NCBI GenBank assembly: GCA_949299455.1 | Contig: CASGAN010000004.1 | Location: 1-64,000, forward strand | DNA length: 64,000 bases | Direction: 5' to 3' | Source: an uncultured Oscillospiraceae bacterium | GTDB taxonomy: Bacteria > Bacillota > Clostridia > Oscillospirales > Ruminococcaceae | The notes under the pieces: model-generated | What the model was told of the DNA's origin: nothing | Databases searched by the model: none | What the model saw: the letters and a program-made list of their open reading frames with translations, nothing else | Shown here: piece by piece, positions 56,442 to 64,000 of the stretch | Position numbering within the stretch: the stretch's first letter is position 1 | How the letters are laid out: every line of letters begins with the position of its first letter | Translations under genes and position numbers: made by a program

Positions 56442-56488
56442 AAAAACGCCCGAATGGAGCAGGAAAACGGCTTCATTCGGGCGTTTTT
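56442..56488. terminator. Terminator after GH3
   Basis: AAAAACGCCCGAATG (56442-56455 region) pairs with CATTCGGGCGTTTTT (56474-56488), giving a stem of about 15 bp with an 18-nt loop. Confidence 0.85.
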
Positions 56489-56500
56489 GGCGTGATCGAA

Positions 56501-56529
56501 TTGACAGTGCGGCCAAAAAAGAATATAAT
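56501..56529 (+). promoter_or_regulatory. Perfect-consensus promoter of the surface-glycan operon
   Basis: TTGACA (56501-56506), 17-nt spacer, TATAAT (56524-56529). This is the only promoter in the window that I see with both boxes perfect and ideal spacing. Confidence 0.92.
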
Positions 56530-56600
56530 AAATAAAATCAGATTGTGTGTCGTTAGAAAAGAATAATATTGATTTTCCCGAATGGAATGGAGCCTGATCT

Positions 56601-57722
56601 ATGAATATAACGATTGTCGGAGGCGGAAACATCGGAACTGCAATGGCGGTGCAAATGGCCAAAAACGGTGCAGCTGTCACAATCATGACATCCAAACCAT
56701 CCAAATTTCAACCCACACTGGTCATGACAGATCTCGATACAGACGTTCAAACAACGGTTTCAGGCGTCCGTATCACAGATGACCCAAAAATCGCAGCAGA
56801 TGCACAGATTGTCTTTTTCACCGTTCCATCTTCTGTTTTCCCGCAAAGCTTTGCACAAATTGCGCCGTATCTCAAAAACGAAACGGCGGTTGGCGTTGTC
56901 CCGGGGACAGGGGGAGCGGAATTTTTTTGCCGTTCTTTCATCGAGGCAGGCGGCACGTTTTTTGGCTTTGACCGTGTGCCGTTTATCAGCCGGCTGATTG
57001 AATACGGCGCGCATGTGCGTGCGCAGAAAAAATCGTCCGTGCGCATCGCCGCATTTCCGGCAAGCCGGGCGTCATCGCTGTGCGCGGCGGTAAAAAAGCT
57101 ATTGTCGATCGACTGCACGGTGATAAAAAACTACCTCACGATCACATTCACGCCGTCAAATCCGATTCTTCACACCTCAAGGCTATATGCGATGTATGCA
57201 GGCCGTCCGATTGATGCGCTGTATGACCATAACATCCTGTTTTATGAAGAATGGGACGACGCTTCGTCCGAATTGCTGTTTGCATGCGACAGCGAACTGC
57301 AGTCGATCTGCCGCGCACTTTCCGATTTTGATTTAAGCGGTGTCATTCCGCTTTCTGTTCACTATGAATCCAAAACGCCGGCGCTGCTCACACAAAAAAT
57401 CCGCAGTATCCGCTCATTCCGCGGCATCGGATCACCGATGAAACCGGCAAACGGCGGCTATACGGTCGATCTCTCGTCGCGCTATTTCACAGAGGATTTC
57501 CCGTTCGGGCTCTGCATTCTGCGCGGCTTCGGTGAGATTGCCGGTGTCAAAACGCCGCATATGGACAAAATACTCTCGTGGTATGAATCGATCGCCGGTG
57601 TGCATTATTTAAAGGACGGCGTACTGTGCGGCGCAGACTGCGCACAAACTGCAATTCCACAGCGGTTTTCTCTTGTGAGCGCAGATGATTTATATGCATT
57701 TTATCAGACCAGTATCGTATAA
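56601..57722 (+). CDS. Octopine/opine dehydrogenase family protein
   Basis: 373 residues. The N-terminal Rossmann domain has ITIVGGGNIGTAMAVQMAK and FFTVPSSVFPQ. The C-terminal octopine-dehydrogenase domain has FTPSNPILHTSRLYAMY, with H191 in the place of the catalytic His. These enzymes reduce the imine formed between an amino group and an alpha-keto acid, making N-carboxyalkyl amino compounds. Here the gene leads a surface-glycan operon, 18 nt before a fused nucleotidyltransferase/PLP gene. An opine-like building block of the glycan is a reasonable inference. Confidence 0.82.
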   Translation: MNITIVGGGNIGTAMAVQMAKNGAAVTIMTSKPSKFQPTLVMTDLDTDVQTTVSGVRITDDPKIAADAQIVFFTVPSSVFPQSFAQIAPYLKNETAVGVVPGTGGAEFFCRSFIEAGGTFFGFDRVPFISRLIEYGAHVRAQKKSSVRIAAFPASRASSLCAAVKKLLSIDCTVIKNYLTITFTPSNPILHTSRLYAMYAGRPIDALYDHNILFYEEWDDASSELLFACDSELQSICRALSDFDLSGVIPLSVHYESKTPALLTQKIRSIRSFRGIGSPMKPANGGYTVDLSSRYFTEDFPFGLCILRGFGEIAGVKTPHMDKILSWYESIAGVHYLKDGVLCGADCAQTAIPQRFSLVSADDLYAFYQTSIV

Positions 57723-57740
57723 CGAAAGGATGACGAATCA

Positions 57741-59558
57741 ATGCAAGCGATTATTTTGGCTGCCGGAATGGGCAAACGATTAAAGGAACTGACAAACAAC
57801 GCAACCAAATGCATGGTAAAAGTAAACGGTGTCACGATGATTGAGCGGATGCTCACATCGCTTGACCGCCTCAGTTTAAACCGTATTATTCTCGTCGTCG
57901 GCTATGAGGGCGACAAGCTCAAAGAATATGTGGGAACGCTTTCGGTCAAAACACCGATCGAATTTGTCGAAAACAAGATCTATAACAAGACAAACAATAT
58001 CTACTCGCTGTATCTTGCAAAAGATCATCTTTTAAACGAGGACACACTCCTGCTCGAATCGGATCTTGTGTTCGAGGATGCCGTGCTTGACCGCATTGTA
58101 AACGACCCGCAGCCGTCTTTGGCGCTCGTTGCAAAATTTGAAAGCTGGATGGACGGCACGGTCGTCGAGCTTGACGACGAGGATAACATCGTCCGCTTCC
58201 GTTCGAAACGGGAATTCCGCTTTGAGGACATCAAAAACTATTATAAAACCGTCAACATCTATAAATTCTCAAAAGAGTTTTCGCGCTCGCACTATGTCCC
58301 GTTTTTGGAGGCATACTGCAAAGCACTCGGCAACAACGAGTATTACGAGCAGGTATTAAAAGTCATCACCCTGCTCGACAAACCGGATATCAAAGCGGTC
58401 CGCCTGCACGACGAAGCATGGTACGAAATTGACGACGTGCAGGATTTGGACATTGCAGAGTCGATCTTCACAAACGATAAAGACCGCCTCAAAAAACTTC
58501 AGAGCCGGTTCGGCGGTTATTGGCGTTATCCGCATCTGATTGATTTTTGCTATCTCGTCAATCCGTTTTATCCGTGCCAGAAGCTGATGGACGAAATCAA
58601 AGCGAATTTCGAAGTGCTTACTACCAACTATCCGTCGGGGATGCGTGTCAACAGCCTGCTTGCCGCAAAACTGTTCGGTCTGCGGGCATCGCATGTCGTT
58701 GTCGGAAACGGTGCGGCAGAGCTCATCAAATCACTCATGACCAAGCTGTCCGGTAAAATCGGCGTGATTTTCCCGACGTTTGAAGAATATCCGAACCGCA
58801 GAGATGGTGAGGAGATTGTCCCGTTTATGCCGCAAAACAGCGATTTTTCCTATACGGCGGATGATCTGATCGCGTTTTACACTGCACATCCGGTCAGTGT
58901 TTTGACGCTCATCAACCCGGACAACCCGTCGGGCAACTATATTGAAAAAGCGGATGTTCTGCGCCTTGCAAAATGGGCGGAACAGACCGGCACACGGCTG
59001 ATTGTGGACGAGTCCTTTGTCGATTTCTGCGACAAAGAGGAGTCGCCGTCGCTTCTGTCGACCGAGCTTCTGCTCTCGTATCCGCAGCTGATTGTCGTCA
59101 AGAGTATTTCGAAATCGTACGGTGTGCCGGGCGTTCGTCTTGGTATTTTAGCAAGCGCCGACGAATCGCTCATTTCGTTTATCAAACAGGATGTGGCAAT
59201 CTGGAACATCAACTCGTTCGGCGAATTTTATATGCAGATTGCGGAAAAATATCAATCGGATTATCAAGCCGCACTGCGCCGGTTCTATGACGTGCGCCGG
59301 GACTATGTATCCGCACTGCGCGAAATCAAAGGCCTGCGCGTGATTGATTCGCAGGCAAACTACCTGATGTGCGAGATTCTGCCGCCGCACACCGCCGCCG
59401 AAGTCACTGAGCATCTGCTGTGTGCACACAACATCCTCATCAAAGATCTCAGTACAAAACGCGGCTTTGACGGCGGACAGTATATCCGCATTGCCGTCAA
59501 ACGTCCCGAAGAAAACGATGTGCTCGTTCGTGCACTCAAACAGCTGTTAAGTGAGTAA
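57741..59558 (+). CDS. Fused nucleotidyltransferase / PLP-dependent enzyme
   Basis: 605 residues. Residues 1 to about 245 form a LicC-like nucleotidyltransferase: MQAIILAAGMGKRLKELT, the metal-binding LLESDLVFED (107-113), and NYYKTVNIYKF. Residues of about 265-605 form a fold-type I PLP enzyme of the HisC/CobD type: INPDNPSGNY (391-400), IVDESFVDF, and the Schiff-base Lys K458 in SISKSYGVPGVRLG. The likely product is a CDP-activated phospho-amino alcohol or phosphonate, with the PLP half acting as decarboxylase or transaminase. Neighbouring LicD and opine dehydrogenase genes support this. Exact substrates are unknown. Confidence 0.82.
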   Translation: MQAIILAAGMGKRLKELTNNATKCMVKVNGVTMIERMLTSLDRLSLNRIILVVGYEGDKLKEYVGTLSVKTPIEFVENKIYNKTNNIYSLYLAKDHLLNEDTLLLESDLVFEDAVLDRIVNDPQPSLALVAKFESWMDGTVVELDDEDNIVRFRSKREFRFEDIKNYYKTVNIYKFSKEFSRSHYVPFLEAYCKALGNNEYYEQVLKVITLLDKPDIKAVRLHDEAWYEIDDVQDLDIAESIFTNDKDRLKKLQSRFGGYWRYPHLIDFCYLVNPFYPCQKLMDEIKANFEVLTTNYPSGMRVNSLLAAKLFGLRASHVVVGNGAAELIKSLMTKLSGKIGVIFPTFEEYPNRRDGEEIVPFMPQNSDFSYTADDLIAFYTAHPVSVLTLINPDNPSGNYIEKADVLRLAKWAEQTGTRLIVDESFVDFCDKEESPSLLSTELLLSYPQLIVVKSISKSYGVPGVRLGILASADESLISFIKQDVAIWNINSFGEFYMQIAEKYQSDYQAALRRFYDVRRDYVSALREIKGLRVIDSQANYLMCEILPPHTAAEVTEHLLCAHNILIKDLSTKRGFDGGQYIRIAVKRPEENDVLVRALKQLLSE

Positions 59559-59618
59559 CAGCCGCTTGTTCGTTTGATGATTTGTTTCGTTTTATCTATT
59601 TAAAGAGGTGCCTATTAT

Positions 59619-61052
59619 TTGACTAAAGACAGCAAGATTTTTTCCGTTTGTTCCCGTATCTTCGGCACAGAAGGCTTTGTGTGCGCACTGACTGCCGTGA
59701 TGATTGCGCAGTATCTGATTATCTTCCCGCCGGCACTTTGCTCCGTGCTGAATCTCATTCTCTATGCATGGGGTGCACCGCTCATGGCAGTGCATCTTGT
59801 GCGGCAACAATCATTTTCGAAAAAAAGCAACAAGCTATGGCTGCTTTTCTACCTCATCGTGTCGTTTTTTGCCGTTTCCATGGTGAGCATTCTGATTCAT
59901 GTCCCGCAAAACATCGTGAGCAATCTTTCCGCGTGGTATTCGTGCGGCCTGCAGGTCTTTTTCTGCTGTTATGTGATTGCCTGTGCCAAAAAAGAACAGG
60001 CCCGGCGGCTGTTTTCGCTCATCATTTTAACAACAGTGCTTGTCACCCTTGCGGTCGCCGCCGCATGCCTTGTCATGCAGTTTTTGAATATCTACCCGCT
60101 CAAAGCCACGACCTCGCGCTTTACCGGACTGTTTTATAACCCAAACAACTGCTTTGTCTGTGCGATGTCCGTTCTGCTGAGCTTTTTATACTGGATGCTT
60201 TTTCATAAGCTTCGTGCGCTCATGATTGTAAACATGCTGCTGCAAGCGTCGCTTATCGGTTTGTCCGGGTCGCGGTCGCTTCTCATCCTGATGGGTGTGT
60301 TTATCGTCCTGATGCCGTGCATCTATGCGGCGCGCCGGTATCAAAAAAATCTCAAAAAAGCCGTCGGCTGTGCAGCACTGCTGATGGTTTCGGGTGTACT
60401 CGCTTTTCAAGTGATGTCATATGCCGGACAAGCGCTTCCGCAGATCGGCCACACCATTGAGACAACCGTTTCGTCCTGGTTTTCGTCCGAAGAAGGAGGT
60501 AGCTCATCCTCAAATGGAAGCGCCCAGTCACCGCCCGACACAAACCGCGCCGAAGGAAACACCGATGCGTCCGATTCGTTCCGGATGCTGCTTTTACAGT
60601 CGGGACTCAAAACATTTGCAAAATATCCGCTGTTCGGCGTAGGACCGCGCAACATTGCGGATGCTGTGCGCGCAACAGCGCCTGATGCCAACTTAAACGG
60701 TATTGACGGCGGCGGTGTGCACAACACCTATTTGCAGCTGCTCATCAGCATCGGTATTGTCGGATTTTTGATCTTTGTGCTGATTCTTGTCTATTGTTTT
60801 GCCGCTTTTACAAAAGCCATGCGTGCCCAGCAAGAAAAAGACGGCACAATCTGCTTTGAACTGCTGTTTTTGCTCGCGGCAATTCTCTGTATCGGCGTAT
60901 ACGGCGCGTTTGAATCGACGCTGTTTTTTGCAAACTCGCCGGCCGCTGTCACATTCTTCTCTATGACGGGATTTTTCCTGCACACCTGCTTTTGCCGCAC
61001 TTCACCCGCTGTTTTTACGCGCAGACTGCATGAAAAAAAGGAGGTAAGCTGA
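59619..61052 (+). CDS. O-antigen ligase/polymerase-like membrane protein
   Basis: 477 residues with 10-12 hydrophobic helices. A long exported loop rich in Ser and Gly (about 285-320) precedes FGVGPRNIADAV and GVHNTYLQLLISIGIVGF, the Wzy_C/WaaL signature region. Such proteins polymerise or ligate lipid-linked oligosaccharides outside the membrane. The start is TTG 59619, with GAGGTG 8 nt upstream. It overlaps the glycosyltransferase gene by one base. Confidence 0.82.
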   Translation: MTKDSKIFSVCSRIFGTEGFVCALTAVMIAQYLIIFPPALCSVLNLILYAWGAPLMAVHLVRQQSFSKKSNKLWLLFYLIVSFFAVSMVSILIHVPQNIVSNLSAWYSCGLQVFFCCYVIACAKKEQARRLFSLIILTTVLVTLAVAAACLVMQFLNIYPLKATTSRFTGLFYNPNNCFVCAMSVLLSFLYWMLFHKLRALMIVNMLLQASLIGLSGSRSLLILMGVFIVLMPCIYAARRYQKNLKKAVGCAALLMVSGVLAFQVMSYAGQALPQIGHTIETTVSSWFSSEEGGSSSSNGSAQSPPDTNRAEGNTDASDSFRMLLLQSGLKTFAKYPLFGVGPRNIADAVRATAPDANLNGIDGGGVHNTYLQLLISIGIVGFLIFVLILVYCFAAFTKAMRAQQEKDGTICFELLFLLAAILCIGVYGAFESTLFFANSPAAVTFFSMTGFFLHTCFCRTSPAVFTRRLHEKKEVS

Positions 61053-62044
61053 TGCTTTTCTCGATCATCGTTCCGGTCTATGGGGTGGAAGCGTATCTTG
61101 CACAGACGGTTCATTCTGTGCGCTCCCAGGATTTTCACGACTGGGAACTCATTTTGGTGGATGACGGTGCAAAAGACCGTTCGGGTCAAATCGCCGACGA
61201 ATGCGCCGCACAGGATGACCGCATCCGTGTGATCCACAAGCAAAACGGCGGCGTTTCCTCGGCGCGCAACACGGGACTATTCGCCGCTAAAGGCGAATAT
61301 ATCGTCTGGCTCGACGGCGACGACCTGCTTTTTAAAAACAGCCTCTCGCGCCTTGCACAGTATCTTGAAAAAAATCCGCACGCCGATATCATTCTGCAAA
61401 ACTATCAGACATATCAAAACAACGCAATACAGCCGGGAAGCGACTATTCGTTTGATTCTTCGAAGCTGACCGATGCAGATCACACGCTTTCCTATCTGTT
61501 TGGCACCTGGCCCGATTTCCCGTGGGCAATCTGGGCGAATGTCTACCGCAGAGAGATGCTCATCACACACAATCTGCTGTTTGACGAGACGATGAGCATG
61601 AATGAGGACGGCAACTGGCTGTTGGATGCGTTTTTGCATGCGCGTACATTCGGCGCCGCAGACAACACGATGTATCTCTACCGCATCGATGTGTCTGGCT
61701 CGCTCGTTCACCAAAAAGCAAAGCTTTCGCACTATGAAAGCAGTTACAAGATGTATACCCGCTGGTTTTCGTTTTTTGCGTCTGCTGACAATCTGCCGCT
61801 TTCATCCCCGGTGATGACCGGCCGGCTTGCACGCGGCTATGTCAATATTGCAACTTCCATTTACGACATGGACAAATGCGACCGCAAAAAAGCCATCGAG
61901 CTGTTTGCCGCACACAAAGATATCTGCGCCCATTCCGCACAGCGCACACACCGGCCGTTTCTGCCGATTCTGCGGATTTTCGGCGTGCGATGCTATCTGC
62001 GCACCATCTGCATGGCATTCCACCTGAAAGAAAAACTGCATTGA
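61052..62044 (+). CDS. Family 2 glycosyltransferase
   Basis: 330 residues. The GT-A fold opens FSIIVPVYGVEAYLAQTVHS and continues WELILVDDGAKDRSG, GVSSARNTGL and YIVWLDGDDLL, which holds the D-x-D nucleotide-sugar site. The C-terminal part has YRREMLITHNLLFDE and MNEDGNW. It adds one sugar to a lipid-linked glycan at the inner face of the membrane. The sugar is unknown. AAGGAGG lies 5 nt before the ATG. Confidence 0.88.
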   Translation: MLFSIIVPVYGVEAYLAQTVHSVRSQDFHDWELILVDDGAKDRSGQIADECAAQDDRIRVIHKQNGGVSSARNTGLFAAKGEYIVWLDGDDLLFKNSLSRLAQYLEKNPHADIILQNYQTYQNNAIQPGSDYSFDSSKLTDADHTLSYLFGTWPDFPWAIWANVYRREMLITHNLLFDETMSMNEDGNWLLDAFLHARTFGAADNTMYLYRIDVSGSLVHQKAKLSHYESSYKMYTRWFSFFASADNLPLSSPVMTGRLARGYVNIATSIYDMDKCDRKKAIELFAAHKDICAHSAQRTHRPFLPILRIFGVRCYLRTICMAFHLKEKLH

Positions 62045-62060
62045 TTCAGAAAGGAAACGT

Positions 62061-63473
62061 ATGAACGAGATCAAAAAAATTGCGAAATCGACGGTCATCT
62101 ATCTGTTCGGCAGTGTCGGCACAAAAATCATCACGTTTTTCCTTCTGCCGATTCTCACCGCAAACATTCCCGAAGCCGATTTCGGTATCTATAACACCAG
62201 CTGTTCGTATGCCACGCTCATTTCCTCCGTGCTGTTTTTGGACGTTTGGGCGGGCATCATGCGCTTTATGTTCGATTACAAAGCGAAAAAAGAACAGTAT
62301 CAGGTCATTTACAGCGGCATCGTGCTGTTTGTCTCCTCGCTTGCACTGTATATCGGCGCGTTTTTCATCTTCAATGCATTCACGCCGATGACATATCCAT
62401 GGCTCGTGCTGTTATACGGCGCGTCGCTGTGCTTCCAGAATCTTTACAGCTATATTGCCCGCGCACTCGGAAACAATTCGCTGTTTGCCGTTTCCGGCAT
62501 TGTATCAACGCTTGTCAATGCCGGTGTAACGTTTGTGCTCGTACTGCTGTTAAACTTCGATTACAGCGCGCTGTACATCGCATATGTGTTGGGTATTCTC
62601 GCTCAGTGCATCATTCTCGAAGCAAAGGTGCGCCTGTTTGCAAACTTTAAATCCGCCGGCATCAAAAAAGAACTGGTTCGTCAGATTCTGCGGTTTTCTC
62701 TGCCGCTGTGCATCAACTCCGCGTGCTACTGGATGCTAAACGGCTTCAACACGATTTTCGTCTTTGCACAGCTTGGCAGTGAACAGACCGGATATTATGG
62801 CATGGCGGGCAAATTCGCCGTCATGATCAGCCTTGTCACCTCGTGTTTTTCGATGGCATGGCAGGAGCTTGCATTCAATAAATCCGACCAGAGCAAGGAA
62901 ACCTGTGCGTTTTACTCGACGGCTGTACAGCTTTACGCAAAAGCGCTGTTTTGCGGCTATCTGCTCTTGATGCCGTTTATTTCGATCATTTTCCCGTTTT
63001 TTATCCGCGGCACATACGGTCCGGTCAAGGCCATCATTCCGCTTTATATGCTCGCGACGATTGTGAGCATCATGAGCACGTTTTTGGGCAATATTTTAAC
63101 CGCCTACAAACGAAATCAGACGATTTTTGTCTCCACACTGTGCGCCTGCACCGTAAACGTCGTGATCGCCGTTTTGCTCATTGACCTGATCGGCGTGCAG
63201 GCGGCTTCACTTGCAATGCTGTGCGGCTATTTTGTCTGCGATTTTGTCCGGATTCTGTTTATCAAACAGTCGATTCCGCTGCGGTTCGGCTGGAAGTCAC
63301 TGCTGTATATGATTCCGCTGTGCGTGCTGTTCTCTGTGGTCTATTTGTACAGCGGCATCTGGCTCGACATTCTCATGTTCTTGTTGGCCGCGGCAATTAC
63401 GCTGTTTTTGTTTAAAGACTATGTCCGCATTGCATATGCAAAGCTTATATCCATGATGAAAAAGACATCATAA
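62061..63473 (+). CDS. Oligosaccharide flippase (Wzx/MOP family)
   Basis: 470 residues with about 12-14 helices. It opens STVIYLFGSVGTKIITFFLLPILT, typical of polysaccharide flippases, followed by YNTSCSYATLISSVLFLDVWAG. It would move a lipid-linked oligosaccharide across the membrane for the Wzy/WaaL-like protein encoded two genes upstream. It follows the glycosyltransferase by 16 nt, with AGAAAGG before the ATG. Confidence 0.87.
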   Translation: MNEIKKIAKSTVIYLFGSVGTKIITFFLLPILTANIPEADFGIYNTSCSYATLISSVLFLDVWAGIMRFMFDYKAKKEQYQVIYSGIVLFVSSLALYIGAFFIFNAFTPMTYPWLVLLYGASLCFQNLYSYIARALGNNSLFAVSGIVSTLVNAGVTFVLVLLLNFDYSALYIAYVLGILAQCIILEAKVRLFANFKSAGIKKELVRQILRFSLPLCINSACYWMLNGFNTIFVFAQLGSEQTGYYGMAGKFAVMISLVTSCFSMAWQELAFNKSDQSKETCAFYSTAVQLYAKALFCGYLLLMPFISIIFPFFIRGTYGPVKAIIPLYMLATIVSIMSTFLGNILTAYKRNQTIFVSTLCACTVNVVIAVLLIDLIGVQAASLAMLCGYFVCDFVRILFIKQSIPLRFGWKSLLYMIPLCVLFSVVYLYSGIWLDILMFLLAAAITLFLFKDYVRIAYAKLISMMKKTS

Positions 63474-63499
63474 CCGGTCAGAATAGGGGAGTTTTTACC

Positions 63500-64000
63500 A
63501 TGAATCAGGCACTTACATTGGACGAATTAAAACAGATTGAGCTTGATATCCTCAAGCAGTTTCACGCGTTCTGCGAAGCGCACAATCTGCGCTATACACT
63601 GACCTACGGCACACTGCTGGGCGCTGTGCGGCATAAAGGATTCATTCCGTGGGACGATGACATCGACGTCATGATGCCGCGTCCTGACTATGAGAAATTT
63701 GTATCGCTGACGTTAAACGGATTCGGCGATCATGTTAAAACCGTCTGCCACCAAAACGACGCAAAATATCCGTATCCGTTTGCAAAGGTCATCGACACGA
63801 ACACCCGTCTGATCGAAACGCTCGTGGCACCGGGCAGTTCGCTCGGCGTCTATATCGACATTTTCCCGATTGACGGCACACTCGATCCAAACGATCCGGC
63901 ATATGCGTCGTATGAAAAAAAGATAAACCGCAACTGGATGCTCGTTCAGATGGCATCGATGAAGCTTACAAAAGGCAAGAGCCTTGCACGCACAATCGTA
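63500..64000 (+). CDS. LicD-family phosphotransferase, cut by window end
   Basis: The first 167 residues. The LicD signature is complete: LTYGTLLGAVRHKGFIPWDD, then DIDVMMPRPDYEKF, then IDIFPIDG. LicD proteins move phosphocholine, or a similar phospho-amino alcohol, from CDP to a surface sugar. It belongs to the operon starting at 56501 and is the expected partner of the fused nucleotidyltransferase. The C-terminus lies outside the window. Confidence 0.88.
   Translation, partial: MNQALTLDELKQIELDILKQFHAFCEAHNLRYTLTYGTLLGAVRHKGFIPWDDDIDVMMPRPDYEKFVSLTLNGFGDHVKTVCHQNDAKYPYPFAKVIDTNTRLIETLVAPGSSLGVYIDIFPIDGTLDPNDPAYASYEKKINRNWMLVQMASMKLTKGKSLARTIV

Follow-up and report, generated by a model that had tools for sequence, protein, structure and literature searches.

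The window analysed here is a stretch of 64,000 nucleotides (positions 1 to 64,000, forward strand, of contig CASGAN010000004.1, assembly GCA_949299455.1) from an uncultured Oscillospiraceae bacterium that is a close relative of Merdimmobilis hominis. Open reading frame (ORF) calls and Pfam matches place six genes on the plus strand at its 3' end (Table 1). These encode, in order, an octopine/opine dehydrogenase family protein (ODH), a fusion protein (FUS) that joins a nucleotidyltransferase (NT) half to a pyridoxal phosphate (PLP) enzyme half, a Wzy/O-antigen-ligase-type membrane protein, a family 2 glycosyltransferase (GT2), a Wzx-type flippase and a LicD-type phosphotransferase. The original prediction, made from the letters of this DNA, was that these genes may make an opine-type phospho-amino decoration and attach it to a surface glycan; the polymer assembly genes to which it referred, LicD among them, were recovered by Pfam as Wzy, GT2, Wzx and LicD. 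The genes are separated by 18, 60, -1, 16 and 26 bases, and the two large ORFs next 3' of LicD lie on the opposite strand. The LicD gene is cut by the edge of the window; the full ORF, of 271 amino acids (aa), ends at contig position 64315 and matches PF04991 as a whole at 3.6e-47. The genome holds a single full-length FUS and a single ODH. (Note that a second LicD gene is found about 20 kb past the window, at contig positions 84360-85010 (L002; L004:4274-5164, minus strand), in surroundings that, judged by eye, look like a polysaccharide cluster of its own that includes epimerase and glycosyltransferase genes.)

Table 1. Position and assignment of the promoter, genes and protein halves of the operon (window coordinates).
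Feature	Position	Strand	Basis
Sigma-70-type promoter, TTGACA-17-TATAAT	56501..56529	+	12/12 consensus match
Octopine/opine dehydrogenase family protein ODH, 373 aa	56601..57722	+	PF02317 5e-32
FUS, 605 aa, NT-PLP fusion	57741..59558	+	Pfam, NCBIfam and PDB profile matches
FUS NT half, LicC/PntC-like	57741..58490	+	NTP_transf_3 3.5e-11, residues 3-126
FUS PLP half, CobD/Ser-P-decarboxylase-like	58512..59555	+	Aminotran_1_2 (PF00155) 2.1e-30, residues 309-599
Wzy/O-antigen-ligase-type membrane protein (Wzy_C)	59619..61052	+	PF04932 3.6e-18
Family 2 glycosyltransferase GT2	61052..62044	+	PF00535 6.9e-37
Wzx-type flippase	62061..63473	+	PF01943 2.8e-14
LicD-type phosphotransferase	63500..64000, on to contig 64315	+	PF04991 8e-38 (window part)

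With even base use, chance alone would give a promoter that agrees with the consensus at every position roughly 0.004 times in 10 kb (3 spacings x 2 strands x 10,000/4^12); the promoter scan overall returned 8 matches against 9.1 +/- 2.8 expected, i.e. no excess. Both hexamers and their 17-base spacing are the same in locus L024, whose FUS is 98% identical to that of the window, and in L025 from a congener (genome G112), where the promoter is retained although the flanking DNA has diverged. In L025 the promoter, ODH and FUS are present and the four downstream assembly genes are absent at that site; LicD and Wzx genes with 36-39% identity lie on another contig of the same genome (L110). The perfect-consensus promoter of the original prediction therefore stands, and the six genes would, judged from the sequence, form the one transcript that was proposed together with it. 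(An inverted repeat followed by a T run, at 56445-56488, lies just 5' of the promoter and is likely the terminator of the upstream gene.)

Against PDB, the NT half of FUS matched PntC (6pd1, 6.1e-16) and LicC (1jyk, 1.8e-15) about equally well. It carries the motif LAAGMGKRL and the stretch LLLESDL, which is the same in FUS and PntC, contains residues E106 and D108 of FUS, and aligns E106 with Glu104 of PntC. FUS E203 matches PntC Glu196 only after a one-residue shift of the printed alignment. E106, D108 and E203 are invariant in all 22 aligned FUS rows. Glu104 of PntC is positioned to contact the primary amine of the substrate, and LicC has an Asp at this place (PMC6697681). The pattern formed by E106 and E203 suggests that the substrate of FUS would be a small primary amine and not choline.

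When a profile made from the PLP halves of the 22 rows was compared with PDB, the best match was 6oux (1.4e-62, 215 bits), followed by 3ftb, which is named a histidinol-phosphate aminotransferase (5.2e-46, 161 bits), and, more weakly, by CobD 1lc5 (1.4e-35, 126 bits) and other HisC entries (8e-31 and below). Lysine K458, in the motif SISKS (codon at 59112-59114), is invariant in all 22 rows and is presumed to be the PLP lysine. The best NCBIfam match of FUS is CobD, threonine-phosphate decarboxylase; FUS scored 165.4 bits against the CobD equivalog, the cut-off of which is 290.55, and 137.4 bits against the HisC equivalog, the cut-off of which is 276.55. The molecule name of 6oux is 'Threonine phosphate decarboxylase-like enzyme', and we take 6oux to be SMUL_1544, an enzyme that presumably makes ethanolamine phosphate from serine phosphate. 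That molecule name is the product name of SMUL_1544 (PMC7755780). Moreover, the annotation of a Sulfurospirillum protein, which shares 33% identity with the PLP half, reads 'norcobamide biosynthesis serine-O-phosphate decarboxylase'. A precedent from a capsule locus is Cj1436, which decarboxylates serine-phosphate to ethanolamine phosphate (PMC12409886). The PLP half looks like a phosphoserine-decarboxylase-type enzyme. Of the original description of FUS as a LicC-like NT fused to a HisC/CobD-like PLP domain, the fusion was confirmed; the PLP half is nearer to the serine-phosphate decarboxylase type and falls under the HisC and CobD cut-offs, and the NT half is PntC-like at the amine-contact residue. 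The simplest reading of these matches, and in our judgement a highly probable one, is that the fused enzyme would turn phosphoserine and cytidine triphosphate (CTP) into CDP-ethanolamine. (Plain phosphocholine, considered as a product, is disfavoured by the PntC-like Glu together with the fused PLP half.)

The assignment of the first gene as an octopine-type dehydrogenase held up well. Besides its match to PF02317, ODH matches octopine dehydrogenase 3c7a in a PDB sequence search (2.8e-35), and its AlphaFold model (predicted local distance difference test score, pLDDT, 94.1) retrieved octopine dehydrogenase and CENDH as the top Foldseek folds; both the Rossmann domain and the helical domain of octopine dehydrogenase are present. 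ODH residues H191 (57171-57173), R294 (57480-57482) and D299 (57495-57497) align with H212, R324 and D329 of octopine dehydrogenase, which we take to be the catalytic His-Asp pair and the carboxylate-binding Arg. In an alignment of 32 ODH rows, H191 and R294 are each conserved in 32 of 32 and D299 in 30 of 32 (E in the other 2). An enzyme of this family would be expected to join an amine to a 2-oxoacid by reductive condensation.

A scan of an 84,980-species genome collection with FUS returned 180 loci, of which the best 80 were kept; these come mainly from Bacillota and Bacteroidota, with two from Akkermansia and two of Treponema type. Using hidden Markov models (HMMs) built from those loci, we found ODH in 32 of the 80, a gene of the ornithine cyclodeaminase (OCD)/mu-crystallin family in 17 of the 80, and both together in none. 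(Note that a weak ODH match of 31 bits in L101 is included when 33 loci are counted and treated as 'none' when 32 are counted.) The hypergeometric value for this lack of overlap is 2.7e-5, using 33 and 17, which is no true probability because the loci are related: several are near-copy pairs, and L024 comes from almost the window's own species. ODH and FUS are no more than 150 bp apart in 31 of the 32 ODH loci (the remaining one is 3.6 kb off); ODH is upstream of FUS in 4 of the adjacent cases and downstream in 27. OCD lies within 150 bp in 16 of its 17 loci, with both genes on one strand in 15 of these 16; in the seventeenth locus the distance is 3.3 kb. Among loci with full flanks, LicD was found within 3 kb in 18 of 24 with ODH, 8 of 13 with OCD and 6 of 17 with neither, which gives 26 of 37 with ODH or OCD vs 6 of 17 with neither (Fisher p 0.02, with related rows); L024, which has the window's own arrangement, was scored as a LicD miss at 3.9 kb. 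The expectation that ODH, FUS and licD would recur as neighbours was therefore largely borne out, with the qualifications that OCD alternates with ODH and that 31 of the 80 loci lack a confident match to either. (In one locus, at L037:4990-7155, Wzy_C and LicD domains occur within one protein of 722 aa.)

Two pairs of loci caught the exchange of ODH and OCD directly. The flanks of L029 and L030 match at 74-85% of DNA positions, and the match breaks off towards the end of FUS and picks up again within LicD, the replaced segment holding OCD in L029 and ODH in L030. Similarly, the Akkermansia loci L071 and L049 match at 83-91%, with a break near the end of FUS and a resumption just past the swapped gene. 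On a quick FUS tree, at least 29 changes are needed for the three states, and at least 13 for ODH vs OCD alone. By gene arrangement, then, ODH and OCD are interchangeable at FUS loci. The two are unrelated families. The OCD genes belong to PF02423 (3e-30 for L028 and 7.1e-29 for L118; the remaining rows were assigned by the HMM built from the loci), and the nearest PDB relatives of the one OCD compared with PDB, that of L028, are mostly C=N (imine) reductases, namely pyrroline-2-carboxylate reductase, ketimine reductase, mu-crystallin, alanine dehydrogenase and iminosuccinate reductase, with cyclodeaminases weaker. A further match of the L028 protein, 4m54, is presumably an SbnB-type protein.

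At loci without ODH or OCD, Pfam showed no common substitute enzyme among 76 hand-picked proteins of 158 neighbours and 19 more, in a scan in which the 25 commonest of 118 families were examined and the rarer ones were not all seen. The commonest neighbours there are glycosyltransferases, LicD (6 of the 76 proteins) and PF04464 (4 of 76), with short-chain dehydrogenases at 2 of 76. The presence of LicD and of PF04464, a CDP-glycerol-type phosphotransferase family, fits a CDP-alcohol as the product of FUS. A DUF1015 gene directly follows FUS in four loci that have no ODH or OCD at that place (L026:2144-3187, L027:11860-12954, L034:12144-13190 and L123:10820-11866), and an ADGHHR stretch in the L026 protein resembles the ParB/Srx serine kinases. 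Our guess is that the DUF1015 protein might be a free-serine kinase that supplies O-phosphoserine; a search of PDB gave no relative of it at E <= 0.01, and we found no paper joining DUF1015 with a serine kinase.

More distant relatives are carried on plasmids. FUS matched 47 plasmid records, in 9 cases across most of the query; eight were inspected. In Fusobacterium vincentii the FUS relative (49%) has LicD nearby and DUF1015 directly after it, with neither ODH nor OCD across 19.8 kb. A Gloeothece plasmid (L129:7977-11436) has a FUS relative, then an S-adenosylmethionine (SAM) methyltransferase, then LicD, a layout that looks like an N-methylating version of the system, perhaps a de novo route to methylated phosphoethanolamine or phosphocholine. 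In Rahnella and Erwinia a CDP-alcohol phosphatidyltransferase directly follows the FUS relative, so that, besides PF04464, this CDP-alcohol-using family too is found near FUS in two distant relatives. On a Priestia megaterium plasmid (L126:7992-11638) the FUS relative adjoins a homologue of 1-deoxy-D-xylulose 5-phosphate (DXP) reductoisomerase, which could be a self-resistance gene for a fosmidomycin-like product. The Pseudonocardia relative has no telling neighbour, and the Sulfurospirillum plasmid encodes the PLP half only. ODH and OCD were found in none of the seven plasmid stretches with a FUS-type pair.

We also searched in the reverse direction, with the ODH alignment. In the phylum it found 7 of 398 genomes at E <= 1e-30, with strong matches only in the window's own genome and G063; in the class it found 8 of 391 at E <= 1e-60. 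ODH adjoins FUS in four of these eight (the window's own genome, its congeners G112 and G825, and G715, three of which belong to one genus). G112, G825 and G715 look like the genomes behind L025, L024 and L052, so that this sample is not independent of the FUS loci. In G848, G063, G621 and G827, the remaining four, a genome-wide search gave matches to one half of FUS but no full-length copy. In G848 (L138:3414-9684) a single strand carries LicD, ODH, a thiamine pyrophosphate (TPP) decarboxylase, a class V transaminase, a fusion of CTP_transf_like with phosphoenolpyruvate (PEP) mutase, and a LicC/PntC-like NT. By its Pfam families and their order, this cluster appears to be of the 2-aminoethylphosphonate (AEP) tailoring type. 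In G063 (L118:6623-11350) two LicD genes are accompanied by a class V transaminase, by adjoining OCD and ODH genes, and by a gene that fuses a TagD-type cytidylyltransferase with a GFO_IDH oxidoreductase. In G621 ODH stands beside a flippase and a PF04464 gene, and the stretch with the PEP mutase of that genome has LicD about 7 kb along, together with a transaminase and a decarboxylase read from ORFs. PEP mutase was found in three of the four FUS-less ODH genomes (G848, G063 and G621) vs 34 of 382 genomes of the class (the latter at E <= 1e-40), an excess with a chance of about 0.003 by our own arithmetic, which is post hoc and from a small sample. By comparison, PEP mutase gave 0 matches at E <= 0.001 in the window's own genome (99.76% complete), none in G112 and G825, and one match of 21 bits, under the cut-off of 31.5, in G715. 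In the tree, the ODHs from G848 and G621 fall within the FUS-linked ODHs, on starred branches. The FUS and phosphonate pathways would share a phosphorus-bound 2-aminoethyl group, and this group is therefore the likely substrate of ODH.

Put together, these observations lead us to propose the following pathway. FUS would decarboxylate and cytidylylate O-phospho-L-serine with CTP, in either order, to give CDP-ethanolamine. ODH would then condense the free amine of CDP-ethanolamine (or of phosphoethanolamine) with a 2-oxoacid, for which pyruvate is the most likely candidate, and reduce the imine with NAD(P)H, yielding an opine of the N-(1-carboxyethyl) type. GT2, Wzx and Wzy would build, flip and polymerise a repeat unit, and LicD would pass the modified phosphoethanolamine on to one of its sugars. 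In relatives OCD would stand in for ODH, perhaps giving the opposite stereochemistry, and the ODH subfamily could serve 2-aminoethylphosphonate instead. We consider it probable, on balance, that an N-carboxyalkylated phosphoethanolamine is what the operon produces and attaches. Of the separate steps, LicD is quite probably the transferase of this operon, the action of ODH or OCD on a 2-aminoethyl group is reasonably probable, and for pyruvate as the 2-oxoacid the chances are about even. The proposal builds on gene content, domains, conserved catalytic residues, linkage, the exchange of ODH and OCD and the phosphonate-type context, and from these we infer the substrates, the oxoacid, the stereochemistry and the acceptor sugar. 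The opine-type phospho-amino decoration of the original prediction is strengthened by the occurrence of ODH in an AEP-type cluster with LicD, its final chemical step being a predicted one. Consistent with the claim that N-(1-carboxyethyl) phosphoethanolamine substituents are known from Proteus, a review of Proteus and Klebsiella (PMC9630907) gives N-[(R)-1-carboxyethyl]ethanolamine phosphate in a figure legend and in its glossary. In the excerpts of open-licence literature consulted, including that of PMC5560731, we found no gene assigned to this group, and the excerpt of PMC5080321 yielded nothing on a Proteus gene cluster for it.

Several observations weigh against this pathway. The scores of FUS are far below the cut-offs of both the CobD and the HisC equivalog, and, with a second-best match of the PLP half that is named HisC (3ftb), the exact substrate of FUS is not fixed. 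In addition, the plasmid-borne FUS relative of Bradyrhizobium is split and adjoins PEP mutase, so that distant kin can serve phosphonates, which calls for caution in assigning a substrate to FUS. To these must be added the 31 FUS loci that do without a confident ODH or OCD, and the 11 of 37 ODH/OCD loci with full flanks in which there is no LicD within 3 kb. The gene-for-gene swap can itself mean a different product, as in a serotype change, and not the same function, and the side-by-side occurrence of ODH and OCD in G063 indicates that they are not mutually exclusive everywhere. As for the phosphonate context, the PEP mutase genes of G063 and G621 are on another contig than ODH, and the ODH of G063 sits on a long branch and is not firmly placed in the tree. 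Finally, the ODH of G827 lies among apparently non-glycan genes (about 7 kb) in a genome with no full-length FUS and no PEP mutase above the cut-off.

Other explanations would account for part of this evidence. FUS might supply LicD with plain CDP-ethanolamine, and ODH might have a different target in the same glycan, for instance an amino sugar or an amino acid joined to the glycan by an amide bond (decorations of the alanopine or carboxyethyl-lysine type). Such groups exist, since Providencia alcalifaciens O35 carries alanopine and P. rustigianii O14 carries N-epsilon-(1-carboxyethyl)-lysine (PMC10609480), and the loci that lack both dehydrogenases imply that FUS works alone there. We nevertheless regard separate targets as unlikely, given that 47 of the 49 ODH or OCD genes lie 150 bp or less from FUS, that the pair of ODH and FUS persists without glycan genes in L025, and that ODH also occurs within an AEP-type cluster, where the likely common substrate is the 2-aminoethyl-phosphorus group. 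That same cluster, in which the amine would be plain 2-aminoethyl, also speaks against the idea that ODH modifies another amine made by FUS, such as 1-amino-2-propanol phosphate from threonine-phosphate or serinol phosphate from a transaminase route. Here the best NCBIfam match of FUS, CobD, and the use of serinol phosphate in a C. jejuni capsule (PMC12409886) are set against the preference of the PLP profile for 6oux over 3ftb and CobD (215 bits vs 161 and 126), and we consider such a substrate improbable.

The affinity of the NT half for PntC raises the question of whether FUS belongs to a phosphonate pathway, in which it would make CMP-2-aminoethylphosphonate for a C-P bonded decoration. 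The equal nearness of the NT half to PntC and LicC, an NT-PLP architecture as in PntC 6pd1, the ODH subfamily in an AEP-type cluster and the Bradyrhizobium arrangement would all fit. This explanation is strongly disfavoured, however, by the lack of PEP mutase matches in the window's own genome, G112 and G825 and the sub-cut-off match in G715, and by a PLP half that is Aminotran_1_2/CobD-like and not class V; we give it a very small probability. Smaller still is the probability that a plain phosphoethanolamine- or phosphocholine-type LicD operon has an unrelated metabolic dehydrogenase nearby by chance. The ODH family has many substrates and the ODH of G827 lies outside an evident glycan locus, but a chance neighbour is contradicted by repeated adjacency in several phyla, by the swap for OCD at the same site and by the conservation of catalytic residues.

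The proposed N-carboxyalkylation of phosphoethanolamine can be set beside known systems. Like the Lic-1 pathway (LicA-LicB-LicC-LicD), in which a phospho-amino alcohol, once activated by a CTP-transferase, is passed to a glycan by LicD (PMC10434233), the operon pairs an NT with LicD; unlike Lic-1, it has no choline kinase LicA or permease LicB among its six genes, which are the only ones checked for them, and has a fused PLP domain, E106 in place of the Asp of LicC, and the additional ODH. FUS shares with PntC of Treponema denticola (6pd1) the NT-PLP fusion, the cytidylyl activation of a small primary amine and a presumed use at the cell surface (PMC6697681). It differs from PntC in that its PLP half is CobD/HisC-like and not a class V AEP transaminase, and in that its own genome is without a PEP mutase match. 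A further parallel is FrbH of FR-900098 biosynthesis, which we take to be a fusion of an NT and a PLP decarboxylase with later N-modification on the CMP-linked amine. FrbH, which catalyses cytidylyltransfer to an amino acid phosphonate (PMC6697681), serves a phosphonate antibiotic and not a glycan, and is likened to FUS by description. SMUL_1544 L-serine-O-phosphate decarboxylase and Cj1436 are stand-alone enzymes, whereas the PLP half of FUS is fused to a cytidylyltransferase. The fold of ODH is like that of octopine dehydrogenase (3c7a) and CENDH (1bg6), with the aligned His, Arg and Asp in the former; in structure alignments, identity is 26% to octopine dehydrogenase and 21% to CENDH, and the proposed amine is aminoethyl phosphate and not an amino acid. 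The N-[(R)-1-carboxyethyl]ethanolamine phosphate of Proteus O-polysaccharide is the product proposed here.

Bacterial surfaces bear phosphocholine, phosphoethanolamine and aminoethylphosphonate, small groups that are relevant to host interaction. The inference with which we began, an opine-type decoration, is the best-supported reading of this operon and has gained independent genomic support; it is still a prediction, and both ODH and FUS look soluble. More tentatively, and with somewhat less than even confidence, we suggest that it may be one case of a general module in which two unrelated dehydrogenase families, swapped in place, N-carboxyalkylate CDP-ethanolamine or CMP-aminoethylphosphonate destined for glycans, turning a zwitterion into an anionic opine, possibly of opposite stereochemistry, and which would be spread across Bacillota, Bacteroidota, Verrucomicrobiota and Spirochaetota. 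The step from amine to opine would, if true, alter the charge and the recognition of the surface group, and the genes are present in many gut commensals, among them Akkermansia, Alistipes, Butyrivibrio and Merdimmobilis relatives. It would also provide a genetic basis for a Proteus decoration known so far chemically, and would extend the reach of opine chemistry beyond small metabolites and metal carriers, to building blocks activated by a nucleotide.

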